Source: Candidatus Ornithomonoglobus merdipullorum (GTDB lineage: Bacteria > Bacillota > Clostridia > UBA1381). From it: 49,498 nt of DNA. The stretch is from NCBI GenBank assembly GCA_018714695.1, contig DVNB01000099.1, positions 1 through 49,498 on the forward strand, written 5' to 3'. A program made the position numbers and the translations under genes. The notes beneath the pieces are model-generated. The model was not told where the DNA came from. It was given only the letters and a program-made list of their open reading frames with translations, and did not search any database. Below, one piece after another: positions 1,154-43,763 of the stretch (position 1 is its first letter; every line of letters begins with the position of its first letter).

Positions 1154-3892
1154 TTATTCTCCGCTGCCGGTCGTGTTATTGACCGTATTCGAGTAATCCT
1201 CATAGCTATCGGCATGGATATCGTCCGAAACATCTGCCATACTATTTTCATCAAACTCCAAACCGTATGTTACTGTTGCGGTAGCGCCGGGAGCGTACAG
1301 ATTATCTATAACGAACCCGTAAATAACTCCGCCTGTTGTCGTTACCGTTGTGCTTATATTGTCATATGCGGAAAATGAAACCGAATCGGCGTTCCCGCTA
1401 TCTTGAGTAAATCCGGTTGCCTTGTATATAGAGCCTTTATGCGAAGCATCTACAGATTCCGAATCGGTCAGTACAGCAGTATCGTCAAAAGCAAAAAAGC
1501 TGCGCAGCGGTATATCTTCATCTGTTGTCAATTTCTTAACAAATACGGGCGAATCATTTGCGGGATTTGGTATCGTGACGGTCCATATTATACTGTTCCG
1601 GCTCGTACCGTTATTTGCTATCCTTGCGGTAAATGATGTTGCGATCGTATTGCCGTACTCATCGCCGCCGGCTTTGCCATTGTCTTTATTGGGGGTAGGT
1701 GTTTTTTTGTCCCCACTATCAGTGATCAGTGCATCATTTACGTTATTAAAATACGTATCGTGCGAGCCTGCGTAACCGGAGCCTTCGAGGTTATCCTCTC
1801 CATCCTCACTGACAAACGATACGGTGGCTTGTATTGCTGGCTGATCAATAACTGTTATGGTTATATTTTCTTTTACTTTTATATAACAGTCAGCCCAGAT
1901 GTCAAGCGCGGTATTGTCTCCCGCTCCGTAACGCTGTGTGCCTCCGCCGTTTCCGTATTTCATGGTGCCCTCCTCACTTGAAGTTCCGGTGGCATGATTT
2001 TTTTCGTCGGCGAGTTTTTCACCGCTTTCGGCATTCACCATGTATTGCGCAGAAGGGGTGTTGTTATAGTAAACAGTCCATTCGTCTTTGTTGCTGTCAA
2101 TAAGCTCTTGATCTTTGAGATCTGCGTAATCGATCTCATTCAGACATTCTATCTTTATACCGTTGTCATTTCGCTCAACGTCTATAAGCGGTACATGGAT
2201 AACTCCGTTTGCGCTGTGCACGCTGACTATATTATAATCACCGGGCGGCACTATATTTCCGTATGCGTCGAGTCCGTTCCATACCAATCGGTATTTGTAC
2301 TCGTATCCACCGAGAGTGCTATCATCTATCTTTGAGCCAAGCAGCATTCTCACATTTGCCTGTTCCTGCTCATTAGGATTGTGTTCGGCTTGCCACTTAC
2401 CTTCAGTATCTCTTATAGCTGTTCCATCATCATCAAGCGCGTATCCGCTGAAATCAAGCTTTACAGCCATCTGATCGGGAGGCAGTTTTCCTTCCGGGAC
2501 GCTGACAGTGATCTCGAACGTTCCGCCGAAGCCTTCCGTTCCGGCACCTAGACTATTGTTTGCTAATGCTCCATCGCCGGAGTTGAGCGTGTAAGGACCT
2601 GAGCCTTCGTAAGTCACGCCGTTCTCTTCTGCCAGCTCCACTCCGGTTATGTCAGTTGTCGTTACCCGCTTATGGGTCAGTGTATATGCCTCGAGCATTT
2701 TTTCGTTCTCTGTCCTGTTAAAGAACACCTTATGGCTCTTATCCACGCCTTCGACTGTGGGCACGAGGTTTATATACGTATGACCGCCGTTTACTATCGG
2801 CAGATCGCCGACGTTTGTGTCGGACTTGCTGTAGAATGAGTGATTGAGCGATTGGAGATTATATATAGAAGTTTTATCATTGGTGTATGTGTCGTTCGGA
2901 TCCCATAGGAAACCTCTGTTGTTGGAATACAGCACAAATCCGCCGGTCCATATGCCGTTCAGGTCGACCTTGTACTCAAATCCATCGTCTGTAAGGACAT
3001 ACATGTTTGAATAAACTCCCGGCATGGATGTTCCGTTACCGAGAGATCCTGTGTTTAGAAACAGCATATCGCTCCAAACGCGTCCGGTTTGCGCTTTTGG
3101 CTGTTCGTCATTATCTGAATATACAGTTACATCGAATGCTGCTACAGCGTTTGTATTATTGCCGGAACTCCAGTTTCCATCAGCTTTTGCCGGACTTGGT
3201 CCATCGCTATGGTGGTTCGCTGACAAGAACCTGAACGCGTATGTCCCTGTTACGGGAGCTGTAAAGTTCAGCGGATCGTAGCCGTCATTATTACTGTTGT
3301 CCACATTGGGACCGTTCCGCTCTTCTGCCGGGCTTGCGATATGTCCTGTGCCGGTATCTTTGTTCACCCTGAAAAGATATACTGTATCGGAACTTGCGTT
3401 GATTGTATTATCCTCATTAATGACCTGGTACTTAGCCGTCGCAGCGGTTTCCGGGTCATACGGCATTCCGCCTGCTTCCGTTGGTATAGTGACGGCTATC
3501 CCGACAGCGTTATCGCCGCCATATAAGTTATCATTTAAGTTATCGTTAAATTCGGTTTCATTTACATTATAAGTATCCTTTTCTGTATCGTAACCCCATA
3601 TCGCTTGGAGCGATGATACATCCTGAGCGTTGGCGCTCGAGCCGAAGTATATCGTCTCGCCCTCTTCGGCGTAGACGTATATCACGCTCGTTCTCTCCTG
3701 TTCCATATTTGTATGATAGCTCCACTCAAGATACGGACGGTACGCATTCCCATTATAATACGAAAACTCCTGACTATCATTATACGAGCCGACAAGATTT
3801 ACGATGCCCTCTGCGGAAGCAGACAATGCTGCCGCCGTCAGCACGGCAGCCGATACAGCCGCTGCCGCGGCAATTCTGCACATTACTGCCAT
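1154..3892 (-). CDS. Large secreted surface protein, unknown function
   Basis: The product is about 912 aa. The chosen ATG lies 9 nt from GGAG; an in-frame ATG six bases earlier (3898) lies too close. An Ala-rich signal peptide ends near ALSASAEG. The mature protein is acidic, Asn/Thr/Ser-rich and lacks Cys-rich, dockerin, LPxTG or SLH motifs, so its attachment is unclear. A stretch near residues 535-560 (WNGLDAYGNIVPPGDYNI) resembles FlgD-type Ig-like folds. Repeated phrases such as ATVTYGLEF near the C-terminus look like beta-sandwich strands. It is probably an extracellular structural or adhesive protein. A 35-aa ORF precedes it and a 73-aa gene follows on the same strand. Confidence 0.75.
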   Translation of the reverse strand: MAVMCRIAAAAAVSAAVLTAAALSASAEGIVNLVGSYNDSQEFSYYNGNAYRPYLEWSYHTNMEQERTSVIYVYAEEGETIYFGSSANAQDVSSLQAIWGYDTEKDTYNVNETEFNDNLNDNLYGGDNAVGIAVTIPTEAGGMPYDPETAATAKYQVINEDNTINASSDTVYLFRVNKDTGTGHIASPAEERNGPNVDNSNNDGYDPLNFTAPVTGTYAFRFLSANHHSDGPSPAKADGNWSSGNNTNAVAAFDVTVYSDNDEQPKAQTGRVWSDMLFLNTGSLGNGTSMPGVYSNMYVLTDDGFEYKVDLNGIWTGGFVLYSNNRGFLWDPNDTYTNDKTSIYNLQSLNHSFYSKSDTNVGDLPIVNGGHTYINLVPTVEGVDKSHKVFFNRTENEKMLEAYTLTHKRVTTTDITGVELAEENGVTYEGSGPYTLNSGDGALANNSLGAGTEGFGGTFEITVSVPEGKLPPDQMAVKLDFSGYALDDDGTAIRDTEGKWQAEHNPNEQEQANVRMLLGSKIDDSTLGGYEYKYRLVWNGLDAYGNIVPPGDYNIVSVHSANGVIHVPLIDVERNDNGIKIECLNEIDYADLKDQELIDSNKDEWTVYYNNTPSAQYMVNAESGEKLADEKNHATGTSSEEGTMKYGNGGGTQRYGAGDNTALDIWADCYIKVKENITITVIDQPAIQATVSFVSEDGEDNLEGSGYAGSHDTYFNNVNDALITDSGDKKTPTPNKDNGKAGGDEYGNTIATSFTARIANNGTSRNSIIWTVTIPNPANDSPVFVKKLTTDEDIPLRSFFAFDDTAVLTDSESVDASHKGSIYKATGFTQDSGNADSVSFSAYDNISTTVTTTGGVIYGFVIDNLYAPGATATVTYGLEFDENSMADVSDDIHADSYEDYSNTVNNTTGSGE

Positions 3893-3928
3893 AGTCATAT
3901 TCTCCTTTCACATGTTTTATACGGTTGT

Positions 3929-4036
3929 TTATTCGGCAAATACGCTTACAGGTGTAAGCGGGGAGATTGCCGGGAATACTGCCGCCGCTTTTGTTGTCAC
4001 ACCTATAAGGCTGCGAATGAATTTTAATTTGTTCAT
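3929..4036 (-). CDS. 35-aa candidate secreted or signal peptide
   Basis: A 35-codon ORF has a strong AGGAGATG ribosome site. It begins MNKLKFIRSLIG, continues with a hydrophobic and Ala-rich stretch, and ends in a Pro-containing segment (FPAISPLTPVSVFAE). The basic amphipathic start and short polar tail resemble AgrD-like or leader peptides in size. The usual Cys of an AgrD autoinducer is missing and no agrB lies in the window. It sits directly upstream of the secreted 912-aa gene, behind an extended -10 promoter. It could be a leader peptide for that gene, a small secreted peptide or a signal molecule. Confidence 0.45.
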   Translation of the reverse strand: MNKLKFIRSLIGVTTKAAAVFPAISPLTPVSVFAE

Positions 4037-4167
4037 TAATGCATCATCTCCTTTTCTTGTTGCCGGACAGCAGAGATGCCGTTGTCTGGGAATGCTAAGC
4101 GTTGATCTGATTTTGGATTGGCATTCTCTGTTATTCCGGCGTTTTTTATCTCATTTGAGATATGCAT

Positions 4168-4176
4168 ATTATACCA
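4168..4176 (-). promoter_or_regulatory. Extended -10 promoter element
   Basis: The minus strand reads TGGTATAAT, an extended -10 element about 130 bp upstream of the 35-aa ORF. The TTGACC upstream is only 11 bp away, too close for a standard -35. An eight-base C run lies between them. Confidence 0.5.
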
Positions 4177-4463
4177 TAGGGGGGGGTCAATATTTGGTTA
4201 TAAAAAAATAGCTCTAAAGTAAAAAAACGTCATTATGCACAAAAGTTAAAATTGCTTTTATATGCAAATATAGCCATATTATGCAAATGTGCACCTCGGC
4301 GAAGATTTTCCAAGATATTAAGTATTTTCTATAAGTTAACAAAGCATAAACAATATATGAATGTTTTATGATGATGGCAAATTATGCAAACACTTCTTGT
4401 ACGTATTGCAGCTTCATGTTTATAAAAAATCTACTCATTCAAAAAACGTAGGTCCGGACATGC
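4177..4463. other. AT-rich intergenic region with TATGCA repeats
   Basis: This belongs to the 489-nt gap between the 35-aa ORF and the hydrolase. No gene was found. TATGCA recurs at 4234, 4261, 4280 and 4383, the middle two as identical TATGCAAAT copies 19 bp apart. They may bind a regulator of either flanking gene. Confidence 0.3.
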
Positions 4464-4492
4464 TTGACATTTTGGCGGAAGAGCTATATAAT
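4464..4492 (+). promoter_or_regulatory. Consensus sigma-A promoter
   Basis: TTGACA (4464-4469), a 17-bp spacer and TATAAT (4487-4492) match the consensus exactly. It lies 34 bp before the hydrolase ATG, which argues against longer upstream start choices. Confidence 0.85.
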
Positions 4493-4525
4493 TATACTGA
4501 AAAAAATACAACGGAGAGGTGCTGT

Positions 4526-5287
4526 ATGCAAATAGAGATAAAAAGAGACGGGCTGACATTGCGCGGAGACCTGCTGAAGCCTGATCGTGAAAAATGTCCT
4601 GTGGCGATAATATTCCACGGGCTGATGTCAAACCGAGGCAGAGACGGTTCCGGTATGTTTTCGAGAATAGCGGATGCGCTTGTGGAAAAAGGTATAGCTG
4701 CGGTAAAATTTGATTTTGACGGTCACGGTGAAAGTGACGGAGATTTTGAGGATATGACAGTCTACAGCGAGCTCCTTGACGCGGCGAAGATAATGAAGTA
4801 TGTCCGCGGGCTGGATTTTGCGGAGGATATATACATAGTAGGTCATTCACAGGGGGCGTTGGTGGGAGGCATGATCGCGGGATATTACCGCGAATATGTC
4901 AAAAAGCTCGTGATGCTCGCACCGGCGGCAACGATAGTGGACGATGCGTTAAAGGGCTCGTGCTTCGGAGCGATGTATGACACATATAATACTCCCGAGC
5001 ATATGAAGATGAGGAATGTTGATGGCGATGAATTTTTGCTGGGAGAGTTCTATCTCAGAACGGCACGGACTCTGCCGGTTTATGAGACCACATCTATGTT
5101 CAAGGGAGAAACACTGATAATCCACGGCACGGATGATCAGGCGGTTGGCGTTATAGGTTCAAAGCGCTATGCCGAATATATGGAGAATGTGAAGCTTGAG
5201 CTTATCGAGGGCGAGCAGCATGGACTTGACCTTTTCTCGCTCGACAGAGTAGTAGAGGAGGTAGCGGGTTTTTTGAGCGGTGAATAA
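4526..5287 (+). CDS. Alpha/beta hydrolase, cinnamoyl/feruloyl esterase-like
   Basis: The product is 253 aa. The start was set at MQIEIKRDG because a GGAGAGG site precedes it and a perfect promoter lies just upstream. The oxyanion motif HGLMSNRG is at 31-38, the nucleophile elbow GHSQG places Ser at 108, the acid is at D203/D204 in HGTDD and the His is H232 in GEQHG. The block KFDFDGHGESDG resembles the Est1E/LJ0536 cinnamoyl esterases, which release ferulic and related acids from plant polymers. There is no signal peptide, so it would act on imported oligosaccharide esters in the cytosol. Other S33-type lipase or peptidase activities remain possible. It is monocistronic and followed by a terminator. 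Confidence 0.8.
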   Translation: MQIEIKRDGLTLRGDLLKPDREKCPVAIIFHGLMSNRGRDGSGMFSRIADALVEKGIAAVKFDFDGHGESDGDFEDMTVYSELLDAAKIMKYVRGLDFAEDIYIVGHSQGALVGGMIAGYYREYVKKLVMLAPAATIVDDALKGSCFGAMYDTYNTPEHMKMRNVDGDEFLLGEFYLRTARTLPVYETTSMFKGETLIIHGTDDQAVGVIGSKRYAEYMENVKLELIEGEQHGLDLFSLDRVVEEVAGFLSGE

Positions 5288-34643: not shown

Positions 34644-34721
34644 TAGAGGTGAGATAATGGGCAATTGCGAAATGCTGGTTTCGCAGTAATATGGTTAATA
34701 CAGAGAATGGAGGGAACCGTT

Positions 34722-37217
34722 ATGATGAAAAGAATGATCGCAGCGGCGGCAGCTGCTGCGATGCTGTGCGCATCTGTTACTGTTGTGGCTTCAGAAACGG
34801 AGAGCGGCAGCTGCGGGGATAATCTTACATGGACGCTGGATGAGAGCGGGCTTCTTACCGTGAGCGGTACGGGGACAATGGATAATTACACGTTTATCGA
34901 TCCTGCGCCATGGGCAGACAGTGATGTGAGGGATGTAGTGATAGAGGAAGGTGTAACGAGTGTCGGTACATATGCGTTTATGGGTCAGACTGGTATCGAA
35001 ACGGTGACGCTTTCGGCGACTGTTACAAAGATAGACATCGGCGCATTTCAAGAGATAGGCGATAGCTTTACAGCCATAACAATACCGCCGAGCGTGACGT
35101 TTATCGGTCAGTATGCATTTGCGTTGAATGCAAATCTTGTTATAAAAGGTTATCCTGGCAGTTATGCCGAGGAATATGCGTTAAATCAGGGTATAACGTT
35201 CGAGTCGCTCGGGGATGTTCCGCTCAATGATGTGACTGTTTCTACAGTGGAGGAGCTGGAAGCCGCGATACGGTCGTTCAACAGGATAATACTTAAGGAT
35301 GGCGTATATACAATAGATCATCCTCTAACGATAGGCTCGGATTCTGAGTATATCACCAATGTAACAATAACGGCAGAAAATCCGGGCAGGGCTGAGATCT
35401 TGTCAACGCTTGGCTATGAGCCCGTGGCTGAGATAGTGAACGCGTCTCAGATCATGCTCGAAGGACTGATACTCGGTCATGAGAGCCCGGAGTATCAGCA
35501 GGGATGCGGCAGCTCTGAGTACAGCTCAGGATATGTGCTGTACGCGAACCGAGCAGATGATGTGACAATCAACGGCTGTGACCTTTATGGATGCGGTACG
35601 GTGGCGCTGTATCTTGAGGCATCGGACAACTTTACTGCCGAGAATTGTATCCTTCGTGACTGTAAGGAATCTATCGCAAGTCTTTGGGGTGAGAAGATAA
35701 ATATCAATGGCTGTATAATAAGCGGTAATGCGTACGATCCGAAATATGCCGGATCGATCCCTGCGATATGGGCAACAGATCATGCCCCGACATTTTGCGA
35801 CTGTGTATTTGTAAATAACTGTAGTGCGGAGTTTGCCGGCGGCACTGCTGAGGTCATAACGACCGACTGTACGTTTGTCGATAACGCTTGGGATAGCGAA
35901 ACTCCGGAGGATTGGGGTGTATGCTTGAACGGGATCAATTGGCAGGTAAAGGACGGCGTTTTGAGACTTGGCTATCCTATAGAGCTTGATGACGGTACAA
36001 GTATAGAGAGCGGAAAAGGAGAGATACTGCCGTATTCGGTATACTCGCTCCCGTGGCGCGGAAAGGTGTATTCAACGCTCGATGTTGCTCCCGGCGTCTA
36101 TTATTATGGAGAGGGCAGCGGCAGCTGCGGCGATAATGCGGCTTGGTCTCTTAAAAACGGAGTTCTCAACATATCAGGAACGGGAGATATGTATGCGTAT
36201 AACAGTGCGTACAGACCGGATTGGGAGAATGCAAAAGATGTTATCACAGAGGTCATTATAGAGGATGGTATAACAAGCCTTGGGAATATGGCATTTATGG
36301 AATATCCATCGTTGAAGAGTGTGACGCTTCCGAATAGCTTGGAGGTGATAGGCGCCAATGCATTTACGAGGTGCAAGTCTCTTTCCAAAGTGAGCTGGGG
36401 AAGCGGACTTAAAGAGATCGGTATGTCGGCGTTTTCGAATTGTCCGATCACATCGGCAGTGCTGCCGGAAGGATTAACAACGCTTGGGACACAGGCGTTT
36501 TTAGGTAGTGCACTGATGGAGATAAAGCTGCCGTCAACGATTGAGACTTTTGATGCGGATGTGTTCCGGGGCTGTAATGAGCTTGCGAGTGTGGAGATAA
36601 GTGATGGTAATGCGCTTTATAAGTCACTTGAAGGCGTGCTGTTTACCGAAGATATGAAAACGCTTGTATTTGCCCCCGCTGCGAAACCGGTAAGTGTATA
36701 TGTTGTACCGGATGGAGTGGATAAAATAGGCAGTTTTGCTTTTGAAGGAAGCCGCATAGGCGAGATCGTTATTTCGGACAGCGTGACAGAGCTTGAGACG
36801 AATGCTATAAGAGGATTCAAGGGCGAGCGCATAGTTATTCCTAAGAATGTTATTAAACTGGATGAGAACTCGGTATTTATAGAAGGTGCGGGTGAGGTGT
36901 ACGTCTATGAGGACTCGGCTGCGGAGAAGTATTTTGCCGACACTTATATGAATTATAAGATCATACCTGAACTTTCTAAGGCACAGGCTTATGCGGATGA
37001 GAACGGAATTATACAGGTATTTTTGGAGACGGATTCGCAGAATATCGTACCGGTGTTTGCCGTATGCATGAGAGAAGGAGAGCTAACTGAAGTAGGAGAG
37101 CTGAGCGGAGGTGTGTTTGCAACAGAAGGAGCAGATACGGTAAAGCTGTTCATCTGGGATGGGTTTGACACTATGCGTCCGCTTGCAGAGGCTGATACCG
37201 TTTGGGGCGGGGAATAA
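34722..37217 (+). CDS. Secreted BspA-type LRR protein with parallel beta-helix insert
   Basis: The product is 831 aa, starting at the ATG after GGAGGGAACC, with an Ala-rich signal peptide of about 24 residues. A module with GSCGDN-x-x-W-x-L and a SGTG-x-M element occurs twice, near residues 28 and 466, each leading into LRR_5/BspA repeats (for example SLGNMAFMEYPSLKSVTLP). Between them (about 165-390) is a right-handed beta-helix region with short N-x-(I/V)-x-x-x-x-x rungs. The C-terminus has FIWDGFDTMRPL, like a module in the 1474-aa esterase. No anchor was seen. It is probably a surface or secreted carbohydrate-binding or adhesive protein. Confidence 0.82.
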   Translation: MMKRMIAAAAAAAMLCASVTVVASETESGSCGDNLTWTLDESGLLTVSGTGTMDNYTFIDPAPWADSDVRDVVIEEGVTSVGTYAFMGQTGIETVTLSATVTKIDIGAFQEIGDSFTAITIPPSVTFIGQYAFALNANLVIKGYPGSYAEEYALNQGITFESLGDVPLNDVTVSTVEELEAAIRSFNRIILKDGVYTIDHPLTIGSDSEYITNVTITAENPGRAEILSTLGYEPVAEIVNASQIMLEGLILGHESPEYQQGCGSSEYSSGYVLYANRADDVTINGCDLYGCGTVALYLEASDNFTAENCILRDCKESIASLWGEKININGCIISGNAYDPKYAGSIPAIWATDHAPTFCDCVFVNNCSAEFAGGTAEVITTDCTFVDNAWDSETPEDWGVCLNGINWQVKDGVLRLGYPIELDDGTSIESGKGEILPYSVYSLPWRGKVYSTLDVAPGVYYYGEGSGSCGDNAAWSLKNGVLNISGTGDMYAYNSAYRPDWENAKDVITEVIIEDGITSLGNMAFMEYPSLKSVTLPNSLEVIGANAFTRCKSLSKVSWGSGLKEIGMSAFSNCPITSAVLPEGLTTLGTQAFLGSALMEIKLPSTIETFDADVFRGCNELASVEISDGNALYKSLEGVLFTEDMKTLVFAPAAKPVSVYVVPDGVDKIGSFAFEGSRIGEIVISDSVTELETNAIRGFKGERIVIPKNVIKLDENSVFIEGAGEVYVYEDSAAEKYFADTYMNYKIIPELSKAQAYADENGIIQVFLETDSQNIVPVFAVCMREGELTEVGELSGGVFATEGADTVKLFIWDGFDTMRPLAEADTVWGGE

Positions 37218-37490: not shown

Positions 37491-39554
37491 ATGAACAGAT
37501 ATTTTGCGCCCGAATGGGAAGGCTTCACACCCGGTAAATGGTGCGAGGAAGGCATCAATGTAAGAGATTTTATTCAGAAAAACTACACACCCTATGAGGG
37601 TGATGAGGAGTTCCTTGAAGGCCCCACAGAGGCTACGAAAAAGCTCTGGGATGAGGTCATGGAGCTCTCGAAGCAGGAGCGTGAGGCGGGCGGTGTGCTC
37701 GATATGGACACAAAGATAGTGTCGGGGATAACATCACATCCTGCGGGATATATAGATAAAGATCTTGAACAGATAGTAGGTCTCCAGACCGACAAGCCAT
37801 TAAAGCGTTCGCTCCAGCCGTTTGGCGGAATAAGGATGGCTGAGGGTGCGTGTGAATCGTACGGCTACAAGGTCGATCCCGAGGTCGAGATGATATTCAC
37901 AAAATACAGAAAGACGCATAATCAGGGCGTGTTTGACGTGTATACACCCGAGATGCGAATGGCGAGAAAGTCGGCTATCATAACAGGGCTTCCGGATGCG
38001 TACGGCAGGGGAAGGATAATAGGCGATTACAGAAGGATAGCGCTCTATGGAATAGATATGCTCATAGAGGATAAGAAGCATCAGAAGGATTCCGTATGCG
38101 GAAGCATGTCGGAGAAGAAGATAAGACTCAGAGAGGAGCTTCAGGAGCAGCTGAATGCGCTCGCCGAGATGAAGGAACTCGGAAATATTTACGGCTATGA
38201 TATCTCAAGACCGGCAAAGAACGCAAAGGAGGCTGTTCAGTGGCTCTATTTCGGATATCTTGCGGCAGTAAAGGAGCAGAACGGTGCGGCGATGAGTATA
38301 GGAAGAACATCCACCTTCCTTGACATCTATATAGAGAGAGATCTCAAAAACGGCGTTATAACCGAGAAAGAGGCACAGGAGCTCATAGACCACTTCGTAA
38401 TGAAGCTTCGCCTCGTTAAATTTGCGAGAACTCCGGAATATAATTCGCTGTTCTCCGGTGACCCGACATGGGTAACGGAGTCGATCGGCGGTGTCGGTAT
38501 CGACGGACGACCGATGGTAACGAAGAATTCGTTCAGATATCTCCATACGCTCGAAAATCTCGGACCTGCGCCAGAGCCGAACCTTACTGTGCTCTGGTCA
38601 ACAAGACTTCCGGCAGCGTTCAAGGCGTTTTGTGCAAAAATGTCGATAAAGACCTCATCGATCCAGTATGAGAACGATGATATGATGCGCGTGACTCATG
38701 GTGATGACTACGCGATCGCATGCTGTGTATCGTCTATGGTAGTCGGTAAGGAGATGCAGTTCTTCGGAGCGCGCGCGAATCTGGCAAAGTGCCTGCTCTA
38801 TGCTATAAACGGAGGTATGGACGAGAGACTTAAGATACAGGTAGGTCCCAAGTACAGGATATGCGATGGAGAGTATCTTGATTTCGACGACGTTATGGAG
38901 AAGTTTGAGGCGATGCAGGAGTGGCTTGCGGATCTCTATGTGAATACTCTTAATGTGATCCATTATATGCATGATAAGTACTGCTACGAGCGCTCACAGA
39001 TGGCTCTGCACGACAGAGATGTTAAGCGATACTTTGCTACGGGTATCGCGGGACTTTCGGTAGTTGCCGATTCCCTCAGCGCGATAAAGTATGCAAAGGT
39101 AAAGCCGATACGCGACGAGAATGGTATATGTGTTGATTTTGAGATCGAGGGTGATTTCCCGAAATACGGAAACAACGATGATAGAGTTGACGATCTTGCA
39201 GTGGACGTTGTACACAGCTTTATGGATAAGATCCGCAAGCACCGCACGTACCGAGACAGTATACCGACGATGTCGATACTTACTATCACATCGAATGTCG
39301 TATACGGCAAGAAGACCGGAAACACGCCTGACGGAAGAAGAATGGGGGTTCCGCTCGCGCCGGGTGCTAACCCGATGCATGGCAGAGACTCAAGCGGTGC
39401 GGTAGCGTCGCTCGCATCTGTTGCAAAGCTTCCGTTCGGAGACGCTCAGGACGGTATTTCAAATACCTTCTCTATAGTACCGGGCGCTCTCGGCAAGGAC
39501 GATATGGTATTCTCCGGTGAGCTTGATCTTGACGCGCTCATGAAGGAAGACTGA
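37491..39554 (+). CDS. pflB: Pyruvate formate-lyase catalytic subunit, lacking the glycyl radical domain
   Basis: PFL cleaves pyruvate with CoA to acetyl-CoA and formate. The 687-aa protein shows [21 protein letters not shown] at the start (family start MNxEWxGFxxGKW), the [15 protein letters not shown] block and the catalytic Cys pair C411-C412 in AIACCVSSM. It ends DLDALMKED and is followed by TGA TAA. The glycyl-radical C-terminus is absent, but the next gene encodes it. Together they equal about 764 residues, close to the usual 760. The start was chosen for the GAGGG site 6 nt before; an ATG at 37479 is possible. Confidence 0.93.
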
Positions 39555-39616
39555 TAAGAGAGCAGGTCAGAGACAAACAGTTTCAGATATATACAAAATT
39601 GAAAGGAGTAATAATT

Positions 39617-39850
39617 ATGTCACAGCAGGTAGATAATCTTGTAAATATGTTGGACGGCTATGTTGAAAAGGGCGGTCATCATCTCAATGTAAATGTATTC
39701 AATCGCGAGACTCTTCTCGATGCTCAGAAGCATCCGGAAAAGTATCCTCAGCTCACAGTGAGAGTTTCCGGCTATGCCGTAAACTTTATAAAGCTCACAA
39801 AGGAGCAGCAGGACGACGTAATATCACGTACCTTCCACCAGAGCATATAA
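39617..39850 (+). CDS. Stand-alone glycyl radical subunit of pyruvate formate-lyase
   Basis: The 77-aa protein corresponds to the C-terminal end of PFL. It has [12 protein letters not shown], the pattern [14 protein letters not shown] with radical G52, and ends with [16 protein letters not shown]. In usual PFL this follows directly from the catalytic barrel; here 62 nt with stops and a strong AAAGGAG site separate the genes. It is smaller than the repair factor GrcA/YfiD (127 aa). Since the catalytic subunit cannot hold a radical, this protein should be an essential subunit rather than a spare part. The activating enzyme lies downstream. Confidence 0.92.
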
Positions 39851-39855
39851 CTGCT

Positions 39856-40041
39856 ATGGATCAGAGGGAAATAGATGAGCTCGTGCGTTTGCTTGATGCG
39901 CAGATGGCTGCCGGAGCGGGACATATAAATCTGACTGCAGACGAGAATGCGGTAAAGACAGAGGTCACCACTTCTCAGAGCGTGTGCGGGAAGAATATGG
40001 CATGTCAGGTGCCTACGCTGCACGAGGGATACGACGAATGA
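39856..40041 (+). CDS. 61-aa protein related to the N-terminal half of the glycyl radical subunit
   Basis: The gene starts 5 nt after the glycyl-radical gene stop and has no ribosome site, so translation is coupled. The opening DQREIDELVRLLDAQMAAG-AGHINL parallels [23 protein letters not shown] of the 77-aa subunit. The radical Gly loop RVSGYAV is missing. Instead the tail carries two Cys (near 44 and 50) and ends GYDE. It could be a docking, assembly or inhibitory subunit, or a decayed duplicate. Its place before pflA suggests a role in PFL activation. Confidence 0.65.
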   Translation: MDQREIDELVRLLDAQMAAGAGHINLTADENAVKTEVTTSQSVCGKNMACQVPTLHEGYDE

Positions 40042-40046
40042 TACAG

Positions 40047-40089
40047 GGCTGTGCCGGTACGGACGTTCCGTACCGGCACAGCCTGTTTT
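40047..40089 (+). terminator. Intra-operon terminator or attenuator before pflA
   Basis: A perfect 17-bp stem (40047-40063 with 40067-40083) has a 3-nt loop and is followed by TGTTTTC. It lies in the 69-nt gap between the 61-aa gene and pflA, so it could lower pflA expression relative to PFL or protect the upstream mRNA end. Confidence 0.7.
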
Positions 40090-40110
40090 CAATGACGGGA
40101 GGAAACAGAA

Positions 40111-40866
40111 ATGAAGGGATATATACATTCGCTCGAATCGTTCGGGACGGTGGACGGACCGGGTACACGATATGTGGTGTTTTTTCAGGGCTGCCCCATG
40201 AGGTGCCGTTATTGCCACAATCCCGATACATGGGAGCTTAATAAAGGCACGGAGATGACCGTAGATGAAATATTGAAAAAGGTAGAGTCGGTGCGTGAGT
40301 TTATCCGAAACGGCGGCATTACCGCAACAGGCGGCGAACCGCTTATGCAGATAGCTTTTCTGACCGAACTTTTCAGAAAGGCGAAGACGGAGCACGGTCT
40401 TCACACTTGTCTTGATACCTCCGGGATCGCTTTTACTCCCGGGAATACAGAGAAATTCGACGAGCTTATGAAATATACCGATCTTGTTATGCTCGACATA
40501 AAGCATATAGATCCTGAGCAGCATATAAAGCTCACCGGTCAGAAAATAGACAATATAGCGGCGTTTGCGAAATATCTTTCGGATAAAGGGACTCCGGTCT
40601 GGATACGCCACGTTGTTGTTCCGGGTATAACTCTAAACGATGAATATCTCTACAGGCTCGGGCGTTTCATAGGTACTATCAAGACTCTTAAAGCGCTTGA
40701 CGTGCTCCCGTATCATGATATGGGCAGAGCGAAATACAAGGCGATGGGGATAGAGTATTCGCTTGAGGGGACGCCGGTTGCGACCAAGGAGGATGCCGTC
40801 AGAGCCAGAGAGATAATAATGCGTGGATTAAAGGATGAGCTTAAGGCTTCACATAATGCATTTTAA
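40111..40866 (+). CDS. pflA: Pyruvate formate-lyase activating enzyme
   Basis: PflA is a radical SAM enzyme that abstracts a hydrogen from the glycyl residue of PFL. The 251-aa protein has the [4Fe-4S] motif GCPMRCRYCHNPDTW with C28, C32 and C35, the TGGEP SAM motif and SLESFGTVDGPG at the start. The ATG follows GGGAGGAAAC. It should act on the separate 77-aa subunit. A terminator follows. Confidence 0.95.
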   Translation: MKGYIHSLESFGTVDGPGTRYVVFFQGCPMRCRYCHNPDTWELNKGTEMTVDEILKKVESVREFIRNGGITATGGEPLMQIAFLTELFRKAKTEHGLHTCLDTSGIAFTPGNTEKFDELMKYTDLVMLDIKHIDPEQHIKLTGQKIDNIAAFAKYLSDKGTPVWIRHVVVPGITLNDEYLYRLGRFIGTIKTLKALDVLPYHDMGRAKYKAMGIEYSLEGTPVATKEDAVRAREIIMRGLKDELKASHNAF

Positions 40867-40952: not shown

Positions 40953-41735
40953 TTAACGTTTGTTATGACTGTTTCTGAAATCACTGGGGGTACAATTTTC
41001 GGCTTTGACAAACCATCGGTTGAAATTTCTGAGTGATGTGAACCCGCTTTCATAGCAGATCTCAGTCATTGGCAGATCTGTATTGGTAAGAAGATATTTT
41101 GCATAGTCGATGCGGCAGCCGTTCAGTATATCGATCATTCCACAGCCTATTTTGAGTTTAAATGTCCGTGAAAGATATCCCGGATTTATTCCGAAACGAG
41201 CTGCGATCGATTCGAGTGTTATATCTGATCTGAAATTTTCTGAGATATACTTTAAAACATTGTAACAAAGGTCTGCATGATGGTTTGTCGGATAAGGTTC
41301 AAATTCACACTGAGCAAAAAGCAGTCCGAGTATCACATATAAGAATCCCTTTTCGACGACGCTGTTGTGCTTCTGATCGTACACGGAACGCAGCTTATTC
41401 ATACAGTCCTCTGCCATAGGATCCGCGTTGTGTATGACGGGGGAAACGATGCGTTTTACGAAATAGGAATTGAGCCCTGGTATGAGCGAGGGGCTTACAA
41501 TAGTGATGCTGCCGTGGGCATTATCGGATGAGACATAAGAATGCTCCGTTTCGGGAAGCACTATCAGCCATGAATGCTCATGCAGAGTATACTCCTTTCT
41601 CTCGCATGTTATGACCATCTCTCCTTTGGTGCATAGCATAAGCTCAAGCTGCTTATGTATATGGGAACAAAAAGAGAAATTGTCGGAGATGTCAAATATG
41701 GTGAGCAGACGATGGCAGGCTTCGTAAAATATCAT
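40953..41735 (-). CDS. AraC-family transcriptional regulator
   Basis: The product is 260 aa from the ATG after GGAGGAATAAAACA. An N-terminal cupin-like sensor region (about 10-85, HIHKQLELML and EHSWLIVLPETEHSY) is followed by two helix-turn-helix motifs: ITLESIAARFGINPGYLSRTFK and LPMTEICYESGFTSLRNFNRWFVK, ending with the family's TPSDFR. It is divergent from the beta-helix enzyme gene, so it probably controls that gene in response to a sugar. Matching CATACAG/CTGTATG half-sites lie in the gap. Confidence 0.92.
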   Translation of the reverse strand: MIFYEACHRLLTIFDISDNFSFCSHIHKQLELMLCTKGEMVITCERKEYTLHEHSWLIVLPETEHSYVSSDNAHGSITIVSPSLIPGLNSYFVKRIVSPVIHNADPMAEDCMNKLRSVYDQKHNSVVEKGFLYVILGLLFAQCEFEPYPTNHHADLCYNVLKYISENFRSDITLESIAARFGINPGYLSRTFKLKIGCGMIDILNGCRIDYAKYLLTNTDLPMTEICYESGFTSLRNFNRWFVKAENCTPSDFRNSHNKR

Positions 41736-41903: not shown

Positions 41904-43763
41904 ATGGAATACCATGTATCAAAAAAAGGCAGCGACAGAAATAACGGAACACAGGAAAAGCCGTTTCTGACTATATCCAAAGCGGCAGAGCTTGCTGAGG
42001 AGAATGATAGGATCATAGTGCATGAGGGCGTATACAGGGAATGTGTATCGCCTGCCAACGGCGCAAGAACAGCGCAGGGAAGGATAATATACGAAGCGGC
42101 TGAGAATGAGAAGGTTGTGATCAAGGGTTCAGAACGGATAAAAGACTGGAAACGTGAAGAGAACGGCGTATGGAGAACTATTATAGATAACGGCTTTTTC
42201 GGGAAGTACAATCCGTATAAGGAGATCATATGGGGAGACTGGCTCTTCGAGCCCACTGACCGCGTCCTGCATACGGGACAGGTGTATATAAACGGGAAAG
42301 CCTTGAGAGAGGTCACAGACAGTGCTGAATGCGCATCAAAATCTATGACATGGTGCTGTGAAACCGACGAAACCAAAACAGTGATAAGGGCGAATTTTGC
42401 GGATGCCGATCCGAATGAGGAGCTTGCGGAGATAAATGTGCGCAGGTCGTGTTTTGCACCCGTGCATACCGGCGTAAACTATATAACTGTCCGCGGCTTT
42501 GAAATGGAGCATGCCGCCTCGGAGTGGGCACCGCCGACTGCGGAGCAGACGGGGATGCTGTGCACGAATTGGAGCAAGGGCTGGATCATAGAGAACAATA
42601 TACTGCATGATGCGAAATGCAGCGCCGTGAGCGTTGGAAAGGAGCGGTCGACCGGACATAATCTACACACTCGCTATCACCGGAAATCCGGCTACCAGAA
42701 TCAGCTTGAAACGGTTTTTGCGGCTCTGCATATCGGCTGGAGCAAAGAGCGTATAGGAGGGCATGTCATCAGGAACAATACGATATACGACTGCGGGCAA
42801 AACGGGATAGTAGGTCATATGGGCGGCGCGTTCAGTGAGATATACGGGAATCATATTTATAATATAGGCAACAAAAGAGAGTTCTTTGGCGCGGAGATCG
42901 CCGGCATCAAGCTCCATGCAGCCATCGACACGTATATCCACAATAACAATATCCACGACTGTGTCTGGGGGACGTGGCTTGATTGGCAGGCACAGGGAGT
43001 ACGGCTGAGCTCAAATCTTTATTTCAATAACGATAATGATATATGGATCGAGGTCACACACGGACCGCATATTGTGGATAACAATATATTTGCGTCACGG
43101 CTGAACTTCCGAAATGCCGCGCAGGGAGGCGCTTATATACACAACCTGTTCTGCGGCGCACAGCTGCGGTATGATGTTCTCGACAGATCAACTCCGTATC
43201 ATCTGAGCCATTCCACAGAAGTAAAGGGAACTGCGGTCGTATACGGCGGCGATGACAGGTATTTTAACAACATATTTGTAGGAGGCGAGCCGGATGAAGG
43301 CTGGAAGTGCGGAACGGAGCTTTATAACGGATTTACATCTTCAATGGAGGAATATATTGAAAAGACATCGGTGTATCTGAGTGATCCCGATAAGGCATCA
43401 GGTGTAAGACAGCCGGTATATATAAACAATAACAGTTATTTGGCTGGGGCGAAAGGGTTCGAAAAAGAAAAGAATAAGATCGAGAGCGACTATGATCCGA
43501 AGATCCGGGTCTCAGAGGAAAACGGAAGTTTTTATCTGGAAATAGATATTCCGGAATATGGTCTGGTAAAAGATGCACAGCAAGTGAGGACTCACAATCT
43601 GCCAATTCCGAGGATTGCAGAGGCTCCGTATGAAAAACCGGACGGAACGGAACTGGTGATAGACAGGGACTATTTCGGGATCTGCCGCGCGGGGTCTCCG
43701 ACGGCGGGACCGTTTGAGGGGATAGAACCCGGAAAGCACAGACTGCTTGTTTGGCAAAGATAA
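41904..43763 (+). CDS. Right-handed beta-helix enzyme, GH141-like
   Basis: The 619-aa protein has no signal peptide and starts MEYHVSKKGSDRNNGTQEKPF, then TISKAAELAEENDRIIVHEGVYRE, the opening of the DUF1565/pectate-lyase-like beta-helix class. The helix body has repeated N-N-x-I-x-(D/N)-x-x-x rungs (about 220-410). The layout resembles GH141 glycosidases, but I cannot confirm the active residues by eye. It would act on small oligosaccharides in the cytosol. The ATG follows AAGGAGG. It is divergent from the AraC gene and its terminator is shared with lepA. Confidence 0.7.
   Translation: MEYHVSKKGSDRNNGTQEKPFLTISKAAELAEENDRIIVHEGVYRECVSPANGARTAQGRIIYEAAENEKVVIKGSERIKDWKREENGVWRTIIDNGFFGKYNPYKEIIWGDWLFEPTDRVLHTGQVYINGKALREVTDSAECASKSMTWCCETDETKTVIRANFADADPNEELAEINVRRSCFAPVHTGVNYITVRGFEMEHAASEWAPPTAEQTGMLCTNWSKGWIIENNILHDAKCSAVSVGKERSTGHNLHTRYHRKSGYQNQLETVFAALHIGWSKERIGGHVIRNNTIYDCGQNGIVGHMGGAFSEIYGNHIYNIGNKREFFGAEIAGIKLHAAIDTYIHNNNIHDCVWGTWLDWQAQGVRLSSNLYFNNDNDIWIEVTHGPHIVDNNIFASRLNFRNAAQGGAYIHNLFCGAQLRYDVLDRSTPYHLSHSTEVKGTAVVYGGDDRYFNNIFVGGEPDEGWKCGTELYNGFTSSMEEYIEKTSVYLSDPDKASGVRQPVYINNNSYLAGAKGFEKEKNKIESDYDPKIRVSEENGSFYLEIDIPEYGLVKDAQQVRTHNLPIPRIAEAPYEKPDGTELVIDRDYFGICRAGSPTAGPFEGIEPGKHRLLVWQR

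Follow-up and report, generated by a model that had tools for sequence, protein, structure and literature searches.

The DNA analysed here, a stretch of 49,498 nucleotides from Candidatus Ornithomonoglobus merdipullorum referred to below as the window, encodes what is probably a pyruvate formate-lyase (PFL) made of two subunits, a core with the catalytic cysteines and a small glycyl radical protein, GrcA3, together with a third small protein, ORF3, that would dock at the site of the radical domain and guard or reduce the catalytic cysteines. We give this reading, which is drawn from sequence comparisons, a probability of about 0.55. On a bolder and less probable reading, PFL would consist of three parts, its radical and repair modules being exchangeable, and phages would supply the radical module only. 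The split PFL itself was not unknown before, as the small protein has a family of its own in NCBIfam, GrcA3 (NF038360), and the arrangement is of a known but little described kind; ORF3 is an undescribed third component. Our literature search found no paper on a split PFL or on GrcA3, from which we make no claim of absence from print. The features of the locus are the following:

37491..39554, + strand: pflB core, 687 aa, ATG at 37491; TIGR01255 and PF02901
38721..38726, + strand: codons of the catalytic cysteine pair, Cys411-Cys412 (IACCVSS), read from the sequence
39601..39608, + strand: predicted ribosome-binding site of grcA3, GAAAGGAG, read from the sequence
39617..39850, + strand: grcA3, 77 aa, separate glycyl radical subunit; NF038360, Gly_radical
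39856..40041, + strand: ORF3, 61 aa, half glycyl radical domain and Cys44-x5-Cys50 tail; no named family
40043..40086, + strand: intrinsic-terminator-like hairpin and T run, separating pflB-grcA3-ORF3 from pflA
40111..40866, + strand: pflA, radical SAM activase, 251 aa; TIGR02493

The core belongs to the formate C-acetyltransferase family TIGR01255 (1150.8 bits for a cut-off of 994.2, model positions 1-665 of 744) and to the PFL-like Pfam family PF02901 (E 4.7e-223), and its cysteine pair is invariant across 18 aligned cores. It carries positions 2-50 only of the 106 of the Pfam Gly_radical model and thus ends inside the glycyl radical region; the complete glycyl radical domain that TIGR01255-type enzymes have on one chain is not found on it. 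GrcA3 covers positions 52-106, so that the two chains tile one domain, and its Gly52 lies in RVSGYAV (codon 39770-39772). The small chain scores 170.5 bits against NF038360 (cut-off 158), versus 97.8 against the GrcA/YfiD model TIGR04365 (cut-off 170), which it therefore does not join. The core is closed by a TGA at 39552-39554 with a TAA directly after it, and 62 nt separate it from grcA3. The first-pass annotation had described exactly these parts, namely a 687-aa core with the cysteine pair that ends before the glycyl radical domain, two stops, 62 nt and a good ribosome site, then a 77-aa chain with exactly this domain (Gly52 in SGYAV); the coordinates agree, and its proposal of a two-chain PFL is supported, with a radical chain that would have to act in trans on its own core. 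The grcA3 gene is under strong purifying selection, with a dN/dS of 0.01-0.03 against four relatives of the same genus. PflA is a member of TIGR02493 (299.8 bits, cut-off 231.75), and the hairpin region ahead of its gene (40040-40090) has a folding energy of -38.1 kcal/mol. The neighbours are an AraC-family regulator gene at 40953-41735 (minus strand, convergent with pflA), a BspA-type leucine-rich-repeat protein with a beta-helix region on the upstream side (34665-37217) and, on the other flank of the operon, a beta-helix protein that contains a GH120 insertion domain (41904-43763).

The classic weak point of glycyl radical enzymes is that oxygen damages their radical. In E. coli, GrcA (YfiD) is described as a spare-part protein that is activated by PflA and restores PFL lacking its own radical domain; it rescues full-length PFL cleaved by oxygen, and its binding to this cleaved enzyme was better than to a core truncated at residue 695 (PMC8683613, available part). 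Like YfiD, GrcA3 is a separate glycyl radical domain. Unlike in that system, the match of the split core to E. coli PFL stops at about residue 681, and GrcA3 matches it from residue 683, where YfiD has a disordered half. The cysteine pair is shared with classical PFL (TIGR01255), whereas the glycine lies here on a second polypeptide. The family NF038360 has the same length and domain as the 77-aa chain and its name implies a spare part, but here GrcA3 sits beside a core without a glycine loop of its own, and it should therefore be an obligate subunit of that core.

Similar loci were collected by a scan of genome contigs, in which the best 80 of 579 relatives, being those most like the GrcA3 of the window, include Ruminococcus albus, R. 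bicirculans, R. flavefaciens, Lachnoclostridium phytofermentans and Claveliimonas bilis, as well as bins labelled Erysipelotrichaceae and Gastranaerophilales. With loci from relatives and from the class-wide sample described below, 109 loci were examined; once copies and the 12 loci lacking a core in the stretch had been set aside, a split core with GrcA3 was present in 91 distinct loci. PFL, a fermentation enzyme, is thus encoded as two chains in many gut bacteria. Among the window's genome and 40 relatives, 11 of 41 genomes have a match above the GrcA3 cut-off. In the available part of a study on C. phytofermentans, Cphy_1417 is given among the genes of pyruvate catabolism (PMC3561251); we do not equate it here with the split core. 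Core trees (105 and 104 rows, tails left out, 14 conventional PFLs taken in) separate split from conventional cores with two label changes on the first tree and one on the better-modelled tree, on which the branch parting them has a support of only 23.

The solved chains closest in sequence to the core are PDB 38la and 38lb, both entitled 'Formate acetyltransferase'. Over their last 346 residues they reach at best 80.9% and 78.0% identity to split cores, versus at best 68.1% and 67.3% to the sampled conventional cores. Moreover, 38la terminates at LGKED, as do split cores without tail; for 38lb, the reading stops 37 residues before the end. Given these identities and this end point, the two look like natural split cores, although this is not certain from sequence and an engineered truncation is possible. 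A search of the PDB sequences with GrcA3 did not find a GrcA3-like chain from these entries.

ORF3 adjoins the region covered by the first-pass annotation, which mentioned neither this third gene nor its cysteine tail, and begins five bases past grcA3. In the window it does not reach the cut-off of any Pfam or NCBIfam family, its sole NCBIfam match being a weak, N-terminal one to the GrcA3 model (E 0.036, 14.1 bits for a cut-off of 158), and it does not hold a whole glycyl radical domain with glycine loop. Of the 91 split loci, 47 contain a relative of ORF3, which lies between core and grcA3 in 42 of them and after grcA3 in the five of the window's genus. Across the 38 sequences of the family A1 alignment, D14, G20, C44, C50 and P53 are invariant, H23 and A49 nearly so, and RVSGY is absent from all. 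The dN/dS against relatives of the same genus is 0.01, 0.04 and 0.04 in three of four pairs, rough values as dS exceeds 2 in two of these three usable pairs, while dS is saturated in the fourth. From these sequence data, we consider ORF3 to be protein-coding and translated. A word resembling a ribosome site stands ahead of the chosen start in 27 of 39 members; the window's own copy lacks one and may be translated by coupling. That ORF3 is a decayed copy of grcA3 is ruled out by its low dN/dS in these pairs and its invariant cysteines. An apparent core-ORF3 fusion in L073 (835-aa frame) was discarded, as there are Ns in this contig and the core is in a different frame from the one that precedes ORF3.

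The kinship of ORF3 with the radical domain appears in several comparisons. Aligned by hhalign, the ORF3 and GrcA3 profiles match with 93.8% probability (E 1.7e-7) over 33 columns of the first half. Of 38 members taken singly, 21 have a match to the GrcA3 model at E <=0.1 (best 4e-6) and two have one to Pfam Gly_radical at E 0.1 (best 0.0088), and the GrcA3-profile score exceeds the best of 3900 shuffles in 27 of 39 members and does not in 12. The likeness is confined to about positions 3-28 of the 78 of the GrcA3 profile; since the matches are limited to this first half, ORF3 is a glycyl radical domain reduced to its first half, i.e., first helix and barrel strand, followed by something new. 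This new part is a Cys-x(4-9)-Cys tail without glycine loop, with 51% D/E past the proline of the motif. AlphaFold2 (AF2) models ORF3 with a helix at 3-19 and strands at 23-27 and 36-40 (mean pLDDT 65); the cysteine tail is of low confidence (pLDDT about 55) and probably flexible. Against PDB sequences, the ORF3 profile gave only chance-level matches, the best being troponin C at E 0.53.

The association of ORF3 with the split was assessed in a class-wide sample of 291 genomes not chosen by likeness, in which a split was scored as GrcA3 in a short frame (78-106 aa, >150 bits). Such a frame occurs in 18 of the 291 genomes, and ORF3 in nine of these 18 and in none of the 273 others (Fisher test 1e-12, kinship ignored). 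The ORF3 profile matches in 57 of the 291 genomes, nearly over its full length in nine; in the remaining 48, the first 38 positions or fewer match, and the frames concerned are those of GrcA3 or of PFLs 744-802 aa long. Two of the nine genomes have a further short-frame match elsewhere, which belongs to a second mini-protein family with a start resembling the half radical domain. This family is found in three of the 291 genomes (G126, G237, G310), each of which also has a split PFL and an ORF3, at loci with no PFL nearby (L176:3540-3752, L177:3605-3814 and L183). The L176 copy matches GrcA3 at E 4.8e-5 and the L177 copy matches no NCBIfam model; both end with YHHGRCDVGSPWAKG.

Cysteines are also found at the end of the core itself, as in Claveliimonas, where the core tail ends ..ECGNMACNIPNIEESIDRE, or in L118, where it ends ..DCAGGACFSPTLFDGLD... 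Beside the 47 loci with ORF3, 13 of the 91 have a core tail with the pattern Cys-x-Cys-x-Pro and 12 a core tail with at least two cysteines but without this pattern; the rest, devoid of ORF3, divide into 13 without any tail and six with a tail lacking a cysteine motif. Thus, 25 of 91 loci have the cysteines in cis, 47 have ORF3 and none has both (Fisher test over the 78 loci with core tail 4e-15, kinship ignored). As these labels follow the tree, the exclusivity rests on few independent switches: the better-modelled tree has six changes between cis and ORF3, and its starred branches force only two changes for ORF3 and two for the full cis tail. Being short and without the proline motif, 12 of the 25 cis tails may be a different part. 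Among the 18 split genomes of the class-wide sample, nine have ORF3, five the full cis pattern, one a short CC tail (G230) and three neither (G006, G190, G227). The dithiol is not indispensable, given the 13 tail-less loci and the six without cysteine motif, all without ORF3. Indeed, five loci of the window's own genus (L015-L019) have neither ORF3 nor cis tail, which suggests that the dithiol part can be lost; a profile search found no ORF3 anywhere in the genome of one of them, G006. For the Claveliimonas core including the cis tail, the AF2 model has a mean pLDDT of 56 and is too poor to place the tail. In five loci (L050, L054, L060, L084, L114), GrcA3 itself ends in a cysteine pair (..NSCGC, ..LSCGC or ..MGCC).

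These elements can be assembled into a mechanism. The 687-aa chain would form the barrel with the cysteine pair, and PflA would install the radical on Gly52 of GrcA3, which, by homology with PFL and GrcA, may dock via its first helix and barrel strand and push the glycine loop to the cysteines. With the radical on a separate chain, the active site would lie open as long as no intact GrcA3 occupies it, be the subunit missing or spent, and a new GrcA3 could replace a damaged one. The operon usually appears to add a cysteine-bearing tail, either on the core C-terminus or on ORF3. A strand of YfiD was proposed to take the place of the tenth PFL barrel strand against strand 9 (PMC8683613, available part), and ORF3 should therefore be able to dock at the radical-domain site. 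Homologous to the docking half only of the radical domain, it would bind there in place of GrcA3, and its dithiol may reach the catalytic cysteine pair, keeping the pair capped and reduced until a fresh GrcA3 arrives. More tentatively, the dithiol tail, in cis or on ORF3, may be a new maintenance part of the active site that came with the splitting of PFL; it would stand in for the radical subunit from one radical cycle to the next and would keep the cysteine pair intact or restore it.

The C-terminal tail of the class I ribonucleotide reductase NrdA is a swinging redox arm. In E. coli this protein ends DDGCESGACKI, combining an acidic C-terminus and a cysteine pair like the ORF3 tail; unlike NrdA, ORF3 would carry the cysteine motif in trans, on half a radical domain and followed by a proline, so that we consider this resemblance of motifs an analogy only. 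The likeness is short and could be fortuitous.

A rather unlikely explanation, though the first to be weighed against ours, is that ORF3 or the cis tail acts as a plug or competitor, closing the open barrel or timing the docking of GrcA3, with the cysteines forming a structural disulfide only. The half domain kept in ORF3 is indeed the one that completes the barrel, and both the two invariant cysteines and the mutual exclusion of ORF3 and cis tail would fit such a role. However, the cis tails have no recognisable half domain and still carry cysteines, and the shared function therefore seems to be that of the cysteine part rather than a plug; the low-confidence, probably flexible tail of the ORF3 model also counts against this reading. 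It is less likely that ORF3 or the tail is a quencher, which would donate a hydrogen atom to the glycyl radical ahead of any oxygen exposure and serve as a safe off-switch of PFL. Thiols at the radical site would be chemically capable of this, and ORF3 occurs only alongside split PFL in the class-wide sample, but a docking ORF3 would displace GrcA3 instead of coming into contact with the radical on it.

Small Fe-S accessory subunits are known from other glycyl radical enzymes, and by analogy with these accessory proteins ORF3 or the tail might bind a metal or recruit PflA. We judge this slightly less probable than quenching, as there are only two invariant cysteines, 4-9 residues apart, instead of a four-cysteine site, and ORF3 has no Pfam or NCBIfam match to Fe-S subunits.

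The presence of other PFLs bears on whether the split chains are functional at all. The first-pass annotation took GrcA3 as the only source of the radical and proposed a search for a full-length pflB elsewhere in the genome. One is present on contig C70, namely a conventional PflB (TIGR01255, 1156 bits) cut by the contig end, whose own radical domain is readable to SGYAV at that end; contig C98 encodes a PFL2-type enzyme. The claim thus stands for the split core, for which the separate chain is the sole glycine loop, and fails for the organism, where the conventional PflB could carry the flux. The split chains might accordingly be a relic in a cell where full-length PflB does the work and GrcA3 is merely its spare part, as GrcA-type proteins are in E. 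coli (PMC8683613, available part). This is improbable in view of the strong purifying selection on grcA3 and the recurrence of the arrangement together with its own core. Besides, 10 of the 18 split genomes of the class-wide sample have the split PFL as their sole match to the GrcA3 model at E <=1e-20 among the matches listed, a threshold below which weaker glycyl radical enzymes fall. Completeness is 95-100% in eight of these 10, and in G007, a genome of the window's genus that is 98% complete, the split PFL is the only match even at E 0.001. Judging from these searches, the split enzyme seems to stand alone in some genomes other than the window's. A natural split PFL, without any other strong PFL candidate in several genomes that are nearly complete, would make radical installation, docking and repair separable, and the two routes by which split lineages attach cysteines to the enzyme would make protection of the active site directly testable.

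A sequencing frameshift or assembly artefact can be dismissed by the 62-nt gap, the two stops and the separate ribosome-binding site, as the first-pass annotation had argued for a frameshift, and by the recurrence of the same split in 91 distinct loci, which also answers its call to look for the split in related genomes.

GrcA3 is also found on its own. In 12 bacterial loci, eight of them labelled Gastranaerophilales, grcA3 has no match to a PFL core or to pflA in the fetched stretch (L042, L045, L058, L063, L066, L070, L075, L078, L085, L092, L114 and L050, the record of the last being cut so that it starts right at grcA3). A scan of viral records (IMG/VR) gave 43 loci, of which 29 match only from residue 18 (GrcA type) and 14 (L185-L198, of which L185 and L197 look like one locus) match whole or nearly whole GrcA3, with 76-84% identity to that of the window. 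Of these 14 records, which range from 4 to 333 kb and may be fragments, 11 have no PFL core. Among ten neighbour proteins from seven of the records, those named by PHROGs include a terminase (L186), an endolysin (L192), NrdD (L190), an exonuclease (L196) and a helicase (L189). As a phage would gain only if its GrcA3 works on a host core, the viral genes without core support exchange in trans without proving it, and the bacterial and viral loci together count, at the level of sequence, for an action of GrcA3 in trans.

In L187 and L190, the viral GrcA3 is clustered with nrdD and nrdG-like genes. The idea that phage GrcA3 is the radical domain of a phage NrdD was rejected for the five NrdD frames at hand, since each of them retains an R[TL]CGY of its own. 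L185 and L197 both contain, at 3285-5270, a split PFL core with an in-frame TGA, apparently where relatives have a tryptophan, which suggests a genetic code in which TGA is read as Trp.
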